From NCBI GenBank assembly GCA_031269735.1, contig JAISYS010000004.1:1-36804 (forward strand): DNA of 36,804 bases. The letters are read 5' to 3'. This stretch comes from Candidatus Endomicrobiellum cubanum. Its GTDB lineage: Bacteria; Elusimicrobiota; Endomicrobiia; Endomicrobiales; Endomicrobiaceae. Every line of letters starts with the position of its first letter. Positions within the stretch are counted from its first letter, which is position 1. Shown one piece after another: positions 540 through 6,566 of this stretch. The notes under the pieces are model-generated. The model did no database searches. It worked only from the letters and a program-made list of their open reading frames with translations, and was not told the DNA's origin. Position numbers and translations under genes: made by a program.

Positions 540-1108
540 ATGACAATTTCAAATTTAGAAAAAATCAAATGCCCTAAAGGACACATCTTTGAAGCACAGT
601 TAATTTCAGCAATTAGTGTTTCTGATAATTTTGAACTTAAAGAAGCTCTAATTGCTGGAGAAGTAAACCTTGTTACTTGTCCAGATAAGCTTTCAAGAAC
701 AAGCAACTCAATAGCATGGCTAAAATGAAAAAAGAATTTAAGCTTGCTTTGGAAAATTTTAACGATAAAAATAAAATCACTTATGAGCCAATTTTATTGT
801 TTGGTGTTGAAGATTTAGTTTTACTTCTTAAGAAAGAGCAAGATATAGAAGATGAGGAAACTATTTTAACACATTTGGCTAATAGATTAAAATTAAATAT
901 AGTAAAAATAACTCCAAATGTCGCTAGGAAATTAGCTATACCAAAGCTTATGCCTTTTTTAAATCAAGATTTTAGTGAAAAATCTTTAATTTTTGGATTA
1001 GAAACTCTGATAAAGTATAATTCAAATCTTGAATATTATATTGATTTTTTAAAGAAATTATCAAATTACAAAAACATATTTACAGAAATAGCTAGAGTTA
1101 TTAAGTAA
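540..1108 (+). pseudogene. Broken CpXC-domain protein gene
   Basis: Two overlapping frames look like the two halves of one CpXC-family protein, a family of unknown function with paired Cys-Pro-x-Cys-like motifs. The first (540-728) has the N-terminal pattern: CPKGHIFEA near residue 10, then a helical stretch with ELKEALIAGEVNLVTCP. The second motif then reads CPDK where CPxC is expected, and the frame ends in unrelated residues. The second frame (716-1108, 130 codons) starts in the middle of an alpha-helical protein and has the character of the family's C-terminal part. The frame change near 690-720 and the missing segment after the second CP point to a small out-of-frame deletion. Alternatively, the 130-residue half could be expressed alone from the ATG at 716. 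Confidence 0.6.
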
Positions 1109-1110
1109 AT

Positions 1111-1647
1111 ATGAAGATTTGTTTAATTCTTTTTTTTATTATAATTTTTCTTAACTGTGCTTTTGCTAGTTTAAAAATTACTGCAATTTCAAATAAAAAC
1201 AACAAATTCAATATAATTTTAAATAATAGTATACAAATTTTAAATATAGAACTACAAAATAATGAACTGAAGTTTCCAACATACAAATCAAAAAATAAAC
1301 AATATCAACAGTTTTCCATATTGAAAAGAGATTTTAAAATATATTTAAAAGATTCTTTGCTAGGCAATAAAGTCCTTAGCAATAATAGAGATGTATCTTT
1401 TAATACTAATAAGCTTTATATATTAAGAAATAACACAGGTATTAAAGCTTTTGCCTCTGTGATTTTTGATAATGAAATTGAGATAGAGTGCCGTATAATA
1501 CAAGGAAAAAACAGTTTGTGGATAGCCTGGCCCAGTAATAAAATTAATGATAGGTGGGTTAAAAATTTTAAATTTATAGATAAAAATTTACAAAAGAAGG
1601 TTGAAACAAAACTTATCGTTGACTATACTACATATCATGAAAAATAA
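1111..1647 (+). CDS. Exported protein with SpoVG-like domain(s)
   Basis: The 178-residue product starts with a typical signal peptide: a hydrophobic run at residues 4-17, then small residues ending in AFA/S near 20. Residues about 105-170 match the SpoVG fold in order: IKAFASVIFDNEIEIECRII, then QGKNSLWIAWPS, then a C-terminal helix (KNLQKKVETKLIVDY). SpoVG is normally a cytoplasmic nucleic-acid-binding regulator of about 90 residues. The first half (about 22-88) repeats the same pattern in worn form (LNNSIQILNIEL, NNELKFPTYKS, RDFKIYLKDSLL), so I infer two tandem units. The ATG lies two bases after the stop of the broken CpXC gene, and the 3' end overlaps the next gene by 11 bases. The SpoVG resemblance is fairly sure; the role outside the cytoplasm is unknown. 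Confidence 0.65.
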   Translation: MKICLILFFIIIFLNCAFASLKITAISNKNNKFNIILNNSIQILNIELQNNELKFPTYKSKNKQYQQFSILKRDFKIYLKDSLLGNKVLSNNRDVSFNTNKLYILRNNTGIKAFASVIFDNEIEIECRIIQGKNSLWIAWPSNKINDRWVKNFKFIDKNLQKKVETKLIVDYTTYHEK

Positions 1648-3040
1648 CTTTTTTACAAACTCTAAGGTTAAATATATATTAAAAACATGCTTGTCTATCA
1701 CTTTAGTTATATTTTTTGTTATTTGGGCATTATTTTTGCATAAAAATATCAGTGTAAACTTTCCTATGATAGGTTTGCCAATAATAATTTTATGTTATTT
1801 TTTTAAAAATAATTACGCTACTATTTTAATTTGTTTAACTGTGGTCGTTACTTTTATGGAAATCATAGATTTTGTTATTAACTCAGGAGAACCATTTGTA
1901 GTTATTCGTTTCCAATCTAGATTAGTTTCTCTTGAATGTATAGCACTTATAATTTTATATTGGATTTTTGAGATGTATAAAAATCGATATAAAAAAGTTG
2001 AGAATGCATTAGTAGATGAAAACAACAATATTGCACTTGATATAATGTTAAAAAAAACTGAAATCTTAAAAAATAATACAGAAATAGAAAAAATGTCCAA
2101 AAAGATTGAAAATTTTGTTAATCTTGGTAATATTATACAGTTTTTTCATAAATTTTCTAGCGAAAATGAAATGTTTCTCAAAATTCAAGATATTGCTATT
2201 AATTTTATGGAAAAAGGGAGCTGGAAAGTAAAAAAATATACCGAAGATGATGTTTTTGCAAAATATATAAGAACAGAAAATTCTACTTTAATGATAAATG
2301 ATTTGTCTAAAGATAAACGCTTCAATATGAAAAACAGTAAAAAAAAATCTATATTGGTTGTGCCTATAAATATTAATGGTAAAGTTTGGGGGATTATAGA
2401 AGGCTTTTCATATATAAATAATTTTTTTTATGATGAAGATGTAGAAAAATTATTACTTTTTTCATCAAGTATAAGTAAAATAATTAATAATTACTATTTA
2501 TACGAAAACCTTCAAGCTCTTTCTATTGTTGATAGAGTTACAGGTTGTTACAGACAAAGTTTTTTTAAAGAACGTTTTAATGAAGAATTAGCTTATGCAA
2601 AAAGAAACAAACTTTCTTTAACTATTGGTATTTTAGATATAGATTTTTTCAAAAATATTAATGATAAGTATGGACACTTAGCTACAGATTCTGTTTTACA
2701 ACAATTCGCATCAGTCTTGCGTTCCACATTTAGAGAAACAGATATCTTAGCTAGATACGGAGGAGATGAATTTTCTTTTATAATGACACATACTAGCCCC
2801 AATGACGCTTTAAAAATATTAGAAGAAATAAGACTAACTATAGAAAAAACAAAATTTTATTTACCATTAGAAAAATTTCCACCTATTAGTCTAAATGTAA
2901 CAGCAAGTTTTGGTTTTGTATCGTTAACTCAAAATGATGATAATCTTAATGCTGAAGATTTTATAAAAAATTCAGATAAAGCTCTCTACAGAGCAAAGAA
3001 ATTAGGAAGAAATAGAATTGAAAAATACAATAACTCTTGA
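1637..3040 (+). CDS. Membrane-anchored diguanylate cyclase with GGDEF domain and I-site
   Basis: Predicted to make cyclic di-GMP from two GTP. About four hydrophobic segments occupy the first ~110 residues, followed by a coiled-coil linker (~115-155), a GAF-like region (~165-290) and a C-terminal GGDEF domain (~300-467). The catalytic motif RYGGDEF is intact (GGDEF at residues 375-379). The inhibitory-site motif RxxD (RETD, 366-369) sits exactly five residues before it, so product feedback inhibition is expected. I chose the ATG at 1637; an upstream in-frame TTG at 1601 would give 12 more residues but has a purine-rich run abutting it with no spacer. The gene overlaps the preceding exported-protein gene by 11 bases and the next GGDEF gene by 23 bases, so all three are probably co-translated. 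The signal sensed is unknown. Confidence 0.88.
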   Translation: MKNNFFTNSKVKYILKTCLSITLVIFFVIWALFLHKNISVNFPMIGLPIIILCYFFKNNYATILICLTVVVTFMEIIDFVINSGEPFVVIRFQSRLVSLECIALIILYWIFEMYKNRYKKVENALVDENNNIALDIMLKKTEILKNNTEIEKMSKKIENFVNLGNIIQFFHKFSSENEMFLKIQDIAINFMEKGSWKVKKYTEDDVFAKYIRTENSTLMINDLSKDKRFNMKNSKKKSILVVPININGKVWGIIEGFSYINNFFYDEDVEKLLLFSSSISKIINNYYLYENLQALSIVDRVTGCYRQSFFKERFNEELAYAKRNKLSLTIGILDIDFFKNINDKYGHLATDSVLQQFASVLRSTFRETDILARYGGDEFSFIMTHTSPNDALKILEEIRLTIEKTKFYLPLEKFPPISLNVTASFGFVSLTQNDDNLNAEDFIKNSDKALYRAKKLGRNRIEKYNNS

Positions 3041-4364
3041 TAAAAGATTACTAAGTTTAATATATACGTTTTTTGTAATAATTTTTTTATATTTTATAGT
3101 ACCATCTTCTGGCGGTACTATAATATGGATAACTTTTATAGGCTTATTAGGATTTTATTATTCATTATATATTAAAAGCTGCGTTATTTTTTCTTCAGTT
3201 TTTGTATGTTGCCTTTTTATAGCTTTTACAAAAAACTTTTCTTTTAATTTATTCATTATGTGTTTAATTTTTATTTCTTTAATACCATTTCCATATTATA
3301 TAAATATAAAGTTAAAAAAAATAAAAACAATTTTGTCTTCAAAAAAAAATGTTTTAAAAAATCAATATACATCTGTATTTTCTGAATATCAAGAGTCTAT
3401 AAAGTTAAAAAAAGAATATGAATATGACATGCAAAGGATATCTAAGCTGTATGATTTAGATGATTTGCTATCTAATATTACATTAAAAAAGGATTATGCT
3501 GATTTAATTTTAGATTTTTTTAGTCAAAGTTATGGTGTTTTTGGTGGAGCTATTTTGGAAAAAGTTCCCTCTGGATGGGAAAAAATATCTGTTTTTGGTA
3601 TTTTACAGGGAAATGATTTAGCTTCTTTTATGGAACTTACTAGTTTAGTTAATAATGGCACTAGTAGTTGTTATGTTATAGATAATAAAGAATTTAGTAA
3701 ACAGTATTTTAGTGTTTTATATTTTCCAATGTTTGTTGAAAACAGTATATTAGGGTGTATTTTTATTGTTGTAAAAAAAGATTTAGAATCAAGATATATA
3801 AAAGATGGTTCTATTTTTGTTTCTCATTTTTCTTTAGGTTTGAAAAGAATAAATTATTTTGAGGAAATAAAGCAAAAATTGCGATTTGATCCTTTGACAG
3901 GAGTATTATTAAAATTTTACTTTTTAGAGACTGTAAAGATTGAAATTCAAAAAAGTAAATATTTTTGCATTTTAATGCTAGATCTAGATAATTTTAAAGA
4001 TATTAATGATAAATACGGACATTTAGTTGGTGATAAAATTCTTGCAGAAATTAGTAAAATTATATTATCTATATTAGGAAATAATAGTTTGGTTGGTAGA
4101 TATGGAGGAGATGAATTTATAATATTTATTCCTGATTTAACTGAAAAAGAAACTATACTTATAGTAAATAAAATTAATAAATCTTTAAATAATAAATTTT
4201 TTGAAGAAAATAATGAAAAATTTAATATTACAGCAAGTATAGGTGTAAGTTATAATTCAAAAAGCAACTTAGAATTAAATACTATAGTTAATAAAGCTGA
4301 TGCAGCCTTATATAAAGCTAAGAAAAATGGAAAAAATACTTCAGTATTTTATAAAGAATTATAA
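3018..4364 (+). CDS. Second membrane-anchored GGDEF diguanylate cyclase, no I-site
   Basis: The layout matches the preceding gene: about four hydrophobic segments in residues 8-100, a charged coiled-coil linker (~100-145), a GAF-like domain (~160-285) and a GGDEF domain (~290-448). The active-site motif RYGGDEF is intact (GGDEF at 363-367). The position of the inhibitory RxxD reads GNNS, so product inhibition through that site is not expected. The TTG at 3018 is preceded by AGGAAG at good spacing and lies inside the 3' end of the upstream gene; no better ATG exists before the first membrane segment. The two cyclases probably arose by duplication, or were kept together as a pair with different feedback behaviour. 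No EAL or HD-GYP phosphodiesterase is present in the window. Confidence 0.85.
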   Translation: MKNTITLDKRLLSLIYTFFVIIFLYFIVPSSGGTIIWITFIGLLGFYYSLYIKSCVIFSSVFVCCLFIAFTKNFSFNLFIMCLIFISLIPFPYYINIKLKKIKTILSSKKNVLKNQYTSVFSEYQESIKLKKEYEYDMQRISKLYDLDDLLSNITLKKDYADLILDFFSQSYGVFGGAILEKVPSGWEKISVFGILQGNDLASFMELTSLVNNGTSSCYVIDNKEFSKQYFSVLYFPMFVENSILGCIFIVVKKDLESRYIKDGSIFVSHFSLGLKRINYFEEIKQKLRFDPLTGVLLKFYFLETVKIEIQKSKYFCILMLDLDNFKDINDKYGHLVGDKILAEISKIILSILGNNSLVGRYGGDEFIIFIPDLTEKETILIVNKINKSLNNKFFEENNEKFNITASIGVSYNSKSNLELNTIVNKADAALYKAKKNGKNTSVFYKEL

Positions 4365-4442: not shown

Positions 4443-6566
4443 ATGTTAAGAACTAAACTACAGCAAATAGTCGTGTACGGTATGTCAGTATTATATTTTT
4501 TTATGGCCATCTCTTTTTATCTTGGCACTTATGATTCTGCTCAAATAAAAATCACTATTTTTCACGTCGGCGGAATTTTTGTTATTATGTCTTGGCTTCT
4601 TTTAAAATTAGAGGAAGGCAACTTATCTTTTTTAAAGAAAAATTCTATTTATCTATTACCGTTAATTTTATTTCTGTGTTCAGGTGTGGTTTCTCTTATA
4701 TGTTCTCCATTTAAACTTGCAAGTTTAAATGATTTTATTAGAAGGTTTATATATTCTGGAATTGTTTTTGTTTTGATAGATCAGTTCAGTAACGATAAAA
4801 GTCTTTCTAAGCTAAAAAGTTGGCTTTTAGCTGCTACTGCTATAGTATGTTTTTATGGTATATTACAAATATTAGATTATTATGTTATGCCTGGCCTTGA
4901 TCCCTTTATGTGGAGGCAAGCTTTTGGCGATAGGATCATGTCAACTTTTGGAAACCCAAACTTTTTTGGTGATTTTTTAATCGTTATGAGCCCAATACTA
5001 CTTGCCTTATGCATATGTCAAAAAAATGTTTTTTTATTCTTTTTATGGCTAATGATTGTATTATGTGTTTACAATACTGTTTCCAAAGGTGCTTGGCTTG
5101 GTTTTACAGCAGGACTTTTTATTTTCTCGATAATATATATTTTTGTGTTGTTGCGTAATAAGTTAAATAAAAAAATTATCATAATCAGTTCTATTTGTTT
5201 GCTAGGTCTAGTATCAATTTTTGGTTTTGGCACATATCGTAAAACTTTAGAAAGGACAGACAGTGCTTCTTTTAGAATATTTACTTGGCTTTCCACTTGG
5301 GAAATGATAAACACGCATCCCGTTTTAGGTACTGGTATAGGTACTTTTTATGTAACTTATCCTGCTTGGCGACGACCTCAGATATTTTTTATTGAGGATA
5401 AACATAATACAGAAAGTGATCATCCAGAAAATGAATACTTAGAAATTTGGTATGAGGAAGGTATAGTAGGCATATCTATATTTTTAACTTTTGTAATTTT
5501 AATTCTTGTTGTTGGCTACAAAAACATAATGTTTTTACGTTTAAGAAAAATGCCAAAAGAACGATTTCTTTTGTATCTCCAGTTGGGTGTAACTTCTGCA
5601 TTTGTAGCACAACTTGTACATGATAGTGTATGTGTATCTTTGAGGTTTGTTTCTTCAGGAGTTATGTTGTGGTTAGTAATAGGTTTAACTTTGACTATAG
5701 CTGCAAGAATTAGAATTTTAAACGAAGAAATTAATTTTAATGAAATAAATGCTTTAAAAAAGTCAATAAAAATTTTGTTACAAGTAATTGTTATAATAAT
5801 ATTTTCAGTTGCTATAATTTTTACATCCAGGTTTTTTATTGCAGACTATTTACATCCTAAAGCTATAGCTTTTTCAAAAGTTTCAAACTTGACTAATGCT
5901 ATAGCTACGTATGATAAAATCAATAAATATAATCCATCGTTTCCAATGTCTATGTATTTTAAGGCAAACGCCTATATTGAAAGATGGAAAGCAGGCGATC
6001 CATTAAAAGCAGAACAAACCTTTATAAATCTTTGGACACTCGCTCCCAATTATGTGCAATCAAAATATATTGCAGGAACAATGTATGAAAAGGGGATACG
6101 TGCACATATAAATTTGCTAAATGAGTATAAATCTTTAGGAAAATCTCAAGATATTATAGATTCTCAACAAAAAGAAATTGCTAGGGCTTTTATTAATGCT
6201 GAAAAGTATTACAAGCAATATATTGAAATTGATCCAATATACTCACTAACTTACTATGCTCTTGCTAGTTTATATGCAAAAGCAGGTAAGTTTGACGAAG
6301 CAGAAAGAATCTTAAAAGCTCACTTAGAATACCCTAAAAATTTACAAGTTCCTCCACACAATTTTTGGATAGAAGATTGGTCTCAAAGACGCAAAACAGA
6401 ATATTCTGAAACTTATATTCATCTTGCTAATTTATATAAATACTTAGGCAAACTCAACGATGCAAAAAAAGCTTATAAACAAGCTTTGGACTTGAATCCT
6501 TTTAATATAAATGCTAAACTTGCCATAAGTGAATTAGATAATAGTTTAAATCATAATAATAAATAG
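4443..6566 (+). CDS. O-antigen ligase family (Wzy/WaaL-like) membrane protein with C-terminal TPR repeats
   Basis: A 707-residue polytopic membrane protein. The first ~420 residues hold about ten hydrophobic segments with a large loop carrying the O-antigen ligase/polymerase signature (PVLGTGIGTFYVTYPAWRRP, then the charged HNTESDHPENEYLEIWYEEG at about 320-345). One more membrane segment follows near 440-465, then a soluble C-terminal part (~480-707) with tetratricopeptide repeats: ALASLYAKAGKFDEAERIL and HLANLYKYLGKLNDAKKAY are clear units. Such proteins join or polymerise polysaccharide units on the outer face of the inner membrane, or attach glycans to proteins; the substrate cannot be read from sequence. 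The gene has a consensus promoter at 4367-4395 and ends 18 bases before atpB. Confidence 0.82.
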   Translation: MLRTKLQQIVVYGMSVLYFFMAISFYLGTYDSAQIKITIFHVGGIFVIMSWLLLKLEEGNLSFLKKNSIYLLPLILFLCSGVVSLICSPFKLASLNDFIRRFIYSGIVFVLIDQFSNDKSLSKLKSWLLAATAIVCFYGILQILDYYVMPGLDPFMWRQAFGDRIMSTFGNPNFFGDFLIVMSPILLALCICQKNVFLFFLWLMIVLCVYNTVSKGAWLGFTAGLFIFSIIYIFVLLRNKLNKKIIIISSICLLGLVSIFGFGTYRKTLERTDSASFRIFTWLSTWEMINTHPVLGTGIGTFYVTYPAWRRPQIFFIEDKHNTESDHPENEYLEIWYEEGIVGISIFLTFVILILVVGYKNIMFLRLRKMPKERFLLYLQLGVTSAFVAQLVHDSVCVSLRFVSSGVMLWLVIGLTLTIAARIRILNEEINFNEINALKKSIKILLQVIVIIIFSVAIIFTSRFFIADYLHPKAIAFSKVSNLTNAIATYDKINKYNPSFPMSMYFKANAYIERWKAGDPLKAEQTFINLWTLAPNYVQSKYIAGTMYEKGIRAHINLLNEYKSLGKSQDIIDSQQKEIARAFINAEKYYKQYIEIDPIYSLTYYALASLYAKAGKFDEAERILKAHLEYPKNLQVPPHNFWIEDWSQRRKTEYSETYIHLANLYKYLGKLNDAKKAYKQALDLNPFNINAKLAISELDNSLNHNNK

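Follow-up and report, generated by a model that had tools for sequence, protein, structure and literature searches.

A predicted exported protein with two SpoVG-type domains in Elusimicrobiota, encoded next to diguanylate cyclases in Endomicrobiales

A stretch of 36,804 nucleotides from Candidatus Endomicrobiellum cubanum (hereinafter, the window) contains, close to its start, a gene for a 178-aa protein that, judging from sequence comparison and structural models, is almost certainly a Sec-exported periplasmic or surface protein consisting of two fused SpoVG domains that arose by one ancient duplication in, or before, the early Elusimicrobiota. SpoVG has so far been described as a cytoplasmic regulator that binds DNA and RNA. 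An exported two-domain form that selection maintains in a large part of a phylum, and that is kept where the canonical form was not found, suggests a second role for this fold, outside the cytoplasm. In a search of open-access literature, we found no description of an exported, tandem or cyclase-linked SpoVG. The features relevant to the argument are the following.

540..1108, + strand: CpXC-type zinc-ribbon gene upstream, split here into two overlapping ORFs (540-728 and 716-1108); the first fragment matches CpXC (3e-5), and relatives have an intact homologue of 217 aa
1111..1647, + strand: tandem-SpoVG gene, predicted exported protein of 178 aa; ORF with an ATG, SpoVG profile match, purifying selection, 76 intact relatives
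1111..1167, + strand: predicted Sec-type signal peptide, residues 1-19 (MKICLILFFIIIFLNCAFA, followed by S); positive N-region and AFA site on either side of a hydrophobic core (KD 3.73), with a hydrophobic leader at the aligned position of the homologues
1168..1392, + strand: N-terminal SpoVG-type domain (P56, Y58, Y65 and Q67 near-invariant), from profile-profile comparison, AlphaFold2 modeling of the half alone and Pfam matches in relatives
1393..1644, + strand: C-terminal SpoVG domain (IEC127R; W137-x-x-W140-P141-S-x-K144), from Pfam PF04026 above the cut-off, Pfam matches in relatives and hhalign
1637..3040, + strand: diguanylate cyclase 1, with four TM-like segments, a GAF-like domain, an intact GGDEF domain (Pfam, 8e-39) and an RxxD inhibitory site, from Pfam and a TM/motif scan
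3018..4364, + strand: diguanylate cyclase 2, overlapping cyclase 1, with four N-terminal TM-like segments and an intact GGDEF domain (Pfam, 1.5e-38) but without the RxxD site, from Pfam and a TM/motif scan

The genome from which the window comes (1.33 Mb in 60 contigs, 95.4% complete) encodes no other SpoVG match: in a profile search of the whole assembly, the product of 1111-1647 was the only one, and SpoVG is the only Pfam family matched by this protein. According to the ORF list, the ATG of the gene lies two bases past the stop of the preceding gene. Comparison with the nearest relatives yields dN/dS values of about 0.19-0.28, which argues that the ORF is neither a chance one nor decayed. 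Phage and plasmid sequence collections contained no match to the protein, and an origin of the gene from either source was accordingly rejected. The preceding CpXC-type gene has undergone an internal deletion and a change of frame, with the loss of the second CxxC region, and is intact in close relatives.

The SpoVG relationship is most readily detected in the C-terminal half, where PF04026 matches residues 105-173 (2.8e-9; 37.4 bits against the curated cut-off of 29.6), in agreement with the sequence-only reading, which had noted a convincing SpoVG-like domain behind a signal peptide. The N-terminal half of the window protein, searched alone, does not match the Pfam SpoVG profile; among homologous halves searched alone, matches were obtained for 9 of 32 N-halves and 32 of 32 C-halves, and in eight genomes the Pfam search finds two SpoVG matches within one ORF. 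Profile-profile comparison with hhalign relates all three kinds of domains in co-linear fashion: N-halves to C-halves (probability 93.1, E-value 3.2e-7), C-halves to canonical SpoVG (98.1, 8.3e-14) and N-halves to canonical SpoVG (93.2, 3e-7, over 73 columns). In the AlphaFold2 model of the mature protein (32-sequence alignment; pLDDT 93.3, pTM 0.88), an arrangement of beta-strands forming a sheet and followed by a helix occurs twice, and the best nine PDB matches found by Foldseek are SpoVG chains of 2IA9, 2I9X and 2I9Z. Folded alone, the N-half yields a model with pLDDT 89.1, the first eight PDB matches of which are all SpoVG (probabilities 0.47-1.00, E-values 0.06-1.5). Thus, the SpoVG fold is predicted in both halves, and both are SpoVG-type domains by sequence and model, the N-half being strongly diverged.

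The first half had been taken for a worn second copy. That it is a second domain of SpoVG type is borne out by hhalign and AlphaFold2; that it is worn is not, given its near-invariant P, Y and Q residues. Among the 76 relatives, P56 is retained in 74, Y58 in 71, Y65 in 72 and Q67 in 59, and the respective counts for the C-half are 76 for P141, 70 for W137 and 68 each for W140 and C127. By these patterns of conservation, the N-half is an ancient second domain, diverged yet constrained. When 76 N-halves and as many C-halves were placed in a tree with 13 canonical domains, each of the three sets formed one clade with all its members (support 0.99, 0.64 and 0.94, respectively). This clean separation is most simply explained by a single fusion event.

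Export of the tandem protein is a strong and well supported prediction from the sequence. Cleavage is predicted after residue 19, within AFA-S, so that the mature protein would start at S20. Export was judged by one signal-peptide rule, which is passed by 72 of 76 members and 15 of 19 predicted outer-membrane neighbours, as against one of 81 cytosolic controls, namely, RdgB. The four members that fail include two with a clear leader (G038 and G098), one cut near a contig end and one with an over-long ORF. A lipoprotein was considered and rejected: the Cys of the leader (FLNC-AFA) does not match a lipobox, and the relatives do not conserve it. It is highly improbable that the leader does not work as an export signal, with the protein either held by the membrane at its cytoplasmic face or made from a start codon further downstream. 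Such an interpretation could draw on the predictive nature of the export assignment and on two genes, in G038 and G041, that have no ATG ahead of the leader, but it has to contend with the recurrence of the leader, the positive N-region and the small-x-small site across many families, and with the lack of a hydrophobic leader in the phylum's canonical SpoVG copies. Conservation in homologues throughout the phylum also shows that the signal peptide recognized in the initial reading is no artefact of the choice of start site.

Our collection of intact two-domain genes comprises 76 from 75 genomes, which represent most of the Endomicrobiales, several other families of Elusimicrobiota and one small further phylum. 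Matches to the two-domain profile at E<=0.001 are present in 255 of 295 genomes of the phylum, many of these being canonical SpoVG proteins that match the C-half alone; in several families (e.g., f13, f21 and f22), all matches are of the canonical type. The scan of named genomes employed a narrower alignment than the full family and is no evidence of the family's absence from other phyla. In the small further phylum, four of six genomes carry the two-domain gene, and these genomes carry canonical SpoVG as well. In the genus of the window, no canonical SpoVG was found in the genomes searched; the exported gene has been lost from the smallest genomes of this genus and is broken in G019, G026 and G032. 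To judge from its small genomes, this genus most likely consists of symbionts of termite flagellates. A genome of the same family that is assembled into one contig of 1,588,979 bases (G075) encodes the tandem-SpoVG protein along with both cyclases. One locus outside the window (L105) contains two complete tandem-SpoVG genes side by side. Annotations of 'SpoVG' in Elusimicrobiota may denote the exported protein.

The gene lies directly upstream of two diguanylate cyclases with intact GGDEF domains, as originally noticed, and its frame overlaps that of cyclase 1 by 11 bases. The suggested search for the same gene beside GGDEF genes in other Elusimicrobiota finds this arrangement within the order and not outside it: at 37 of the 50 loci from Endomicrobiales, the tandem-SpoVG gene is directly followed by one or two GGDEF genes, mostly in overlapping frames, whereas this is the case at none of 28 loci outside Endomicrobiales. 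Either partner can be found without the other. Three genomes (G010, G013 and G014) encode the tandem-SpoVG protein and have no GGDEF gene; two (G001 and G015) retain both cyclases, whereas their SpoVG gene is gone or present as traces; three (G037, G039 and G042) encode the cyclase pair and no two-domain gene; and four (G044, G045, G047 and G048) encode both, apart from each other. An obligatory cyclase partner was rejected on account of this mutual independence, and since the linkage is also confined to one order, the case for a dedicated circuit of SpoVG and cyclases is not made. The membrane GGDEF genes, as an overlapping pair, are themselves found phylum-wide, independently of the SpoVG gene, and in several families are located near a gene for a MalK-like ABC ATPase (L149-L158). 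At another locus (L154, positions 5967-6224), a remnant of the C-terminal part of a tandem-SpoVG gene precedes the cyclase pair, and an intact copy resides elsewhere in the same genome, beside a CpXC gene. The window assembly has no GGDEF genes other than the two cyclases at 1637-4364. Neither PilZ nor MshEN receptors were found in this genome, and an output from c-di-GMP via these receptor families was rejected for that reason.

Outside Endomicrobiales, the neighbours vary between families and include PorV-like predicted outer-membrane proteins, secreted proteins with lamin-tail domains and a protease with a Por_Secre_tail sorting domain; in four genomes, the tandem-SpoVG gene adjoins a division cluster of the MraZ/MraW/FtsI type. 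In the small further phylum mentioned above (L076, L077 and L078), the flanking genes encode a secreted PLD-like nuclease, a lamin-tail-domain protein, a PorV-like protein and a helix-hairpin-helix outer-membrane-like protein. None of the candidates for a constant neighbourhood outside the order (pilus, secretion, outer membrane, secreted PLD nuclease, division cluster) was accepted, each being confined to some families.

The mature proteins are markedly basic, with a median net charge of +10 and a pI of 9.6 (76 members); the charge per residue is +0.062, close to the 95th percentile of 415 neighbouring proteins (their median being +0.013), and compares with +0.025 for canonical SpoVG. The SpoVG proteins studied bind DNA (PMC3688583) and RNA (PMC4959528). 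For Staphylococcus aureus SpoVG, which by its behaviour is a tetramer in solution, alanine at either position of the K50-R51 doublet abolished DNA binding (PMC3688583). This doublet aligns with PS-x-K of the C-domain, where the second position is K in 58 of 76 members and the first is R in 25 of 76; in the window protein, the first position is N143, which is not basic. The N-domain lacks the basic loop and doublet altogether, and the IAHPI segment present in canonical SpoVG is missing from the consensus of both domains.

By analogy with the pairing of SpoVG subunits, the two domains most likely pack as a single-chain version of the SpoVG dimer; the mature protein, being very basic, would bind a polyanion outside the cytoplasm, with nucleic acid as the first candidate because the studied SpoVG proteins bind it. 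The C-domain retains part of the basic nucleic-acid-binding loop (WPS-x-K), and the N-domain, having lost the loop, would be structural or the source of a new specificity. In Endomicrobiales, the gene would have come to lie in front of two membrane cyclase genes that were already paired, with which it is probably co-expressed without the cyclases being needed for its basic activity. We tentatively favor this scenario, in which a strongly basic pair of SpoVG domains in one exported chain has a polyanion, perhaps nucleic acid, as its ligand, even if we would put its chances at somewhat less than even. It accommodates the strong basicity, the DNA and RNA binding of known SpoVG proteins and the frequent retention of lysine at the second position of the doublet. 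It is weakened by the state of the essential doublet, only partly kept in the C-domain and absent from the N-domain, by the disappearance of IAHPI from both, and by the inconstancy of the gene neighbourhoods outside Endomicrobiales. Furthermore, the invariant residues are aromatic or proline (W137, W140 and P141; P56 and Y58) and would suit the binding of protein or polysaccharide at least as well.

The same residues underlie an alternative that we consider nearly as likely, namely, that the periplasmic SpoVG fold is an envelope scaffold or ligand binder that engages protein, peptidoglycan or polysaccharide via aromatic and proline surfaces, with no involvement of nucleic acid. The invariant W, P, Y and F of the WxxWP and FPxY motifs, the degenerate basic doublet and the envelope- and division-related neighbours outside the order listed above are all compatible with this possibility, which leaves the strong basic charge unexplained and draws on neighbours that differ between families; moreover, WxxWP could reflect mere core packing at the position of the canonical MPS. 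Quite unlikely, in our assessment, is a dedicated periplasmic regulator, in which the exported SpoVG pair would sense a periplasmic signal and act on the membrane segments of the cyclases to tune c-di-GMP. The occurrence in most Endomicrobiales of the gene order SpoVG-GGDEF-GGDEF, in frames that overlap, and the presence in the window assembly of just these two cyclases, both with four N-terminal TM-like segments and intact GGDEF domains, invite such a model. Its difficulties are the absence of the association from all 28 loci outside the order, the phylum-wide occurrence of the cyclase pair without a SpoVG neighbour, the genomes that retain one partner without an intact copy of the other, and the failure to find a PilZ or MshEN receptor in the window's genome. 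A broader extension of the polyanion-binding scenario, for which the odds are low although not negligible, is a phylum-level extracytoplasmic system in which the exported single-chain SpoVG dimer would capture DNA or RNA at the periplasm or surface, for uptake, scavenging or matrix formation, and would be tied to c-di-GMP signalling in Endomicrobiales, including the symbionts of flagellates.

The tandem protein is a member of the SpoVG fold superfamily, yet the name SpoVG should not be given to it because it departs from SpoVG in equivalog score, size, predicted localisation and the IAHPI motif. Against the NCBIfam equivalog PRK13259, it scores 29.9 bits, far below the cut-off of 108. The likeness to SpoVG (PF04026, PRK13259; PDB 2IA9, 2I9X and 2I9Z) lies in the fold of both halves, in the C-half score above the Pfam cut-off, and in the P-S-x-K motif and terminal helix that the C-domain retains. 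The septation regulator SpoVG, in contrast, is a small single domain without an export signal, whereas the window protein combines a signal peptide with two domains, is strongly basic and lacks both IAHPI and an intact basic doublet. The membrane GAF-GGDEF diguanylate cyclases, although adjacent downstream in Endomicrobiales, are a separate gene family. The canonical SpoVG proteins of the same phylum (e.g., those of G040, G041 and G043) share with the exported form a common fold ancestry and often the same genomes, but differ in being about 100 aa long and devoid of a signal peptide, in scoring about 98-112 bits against Pfam and in forming a clade of their own.
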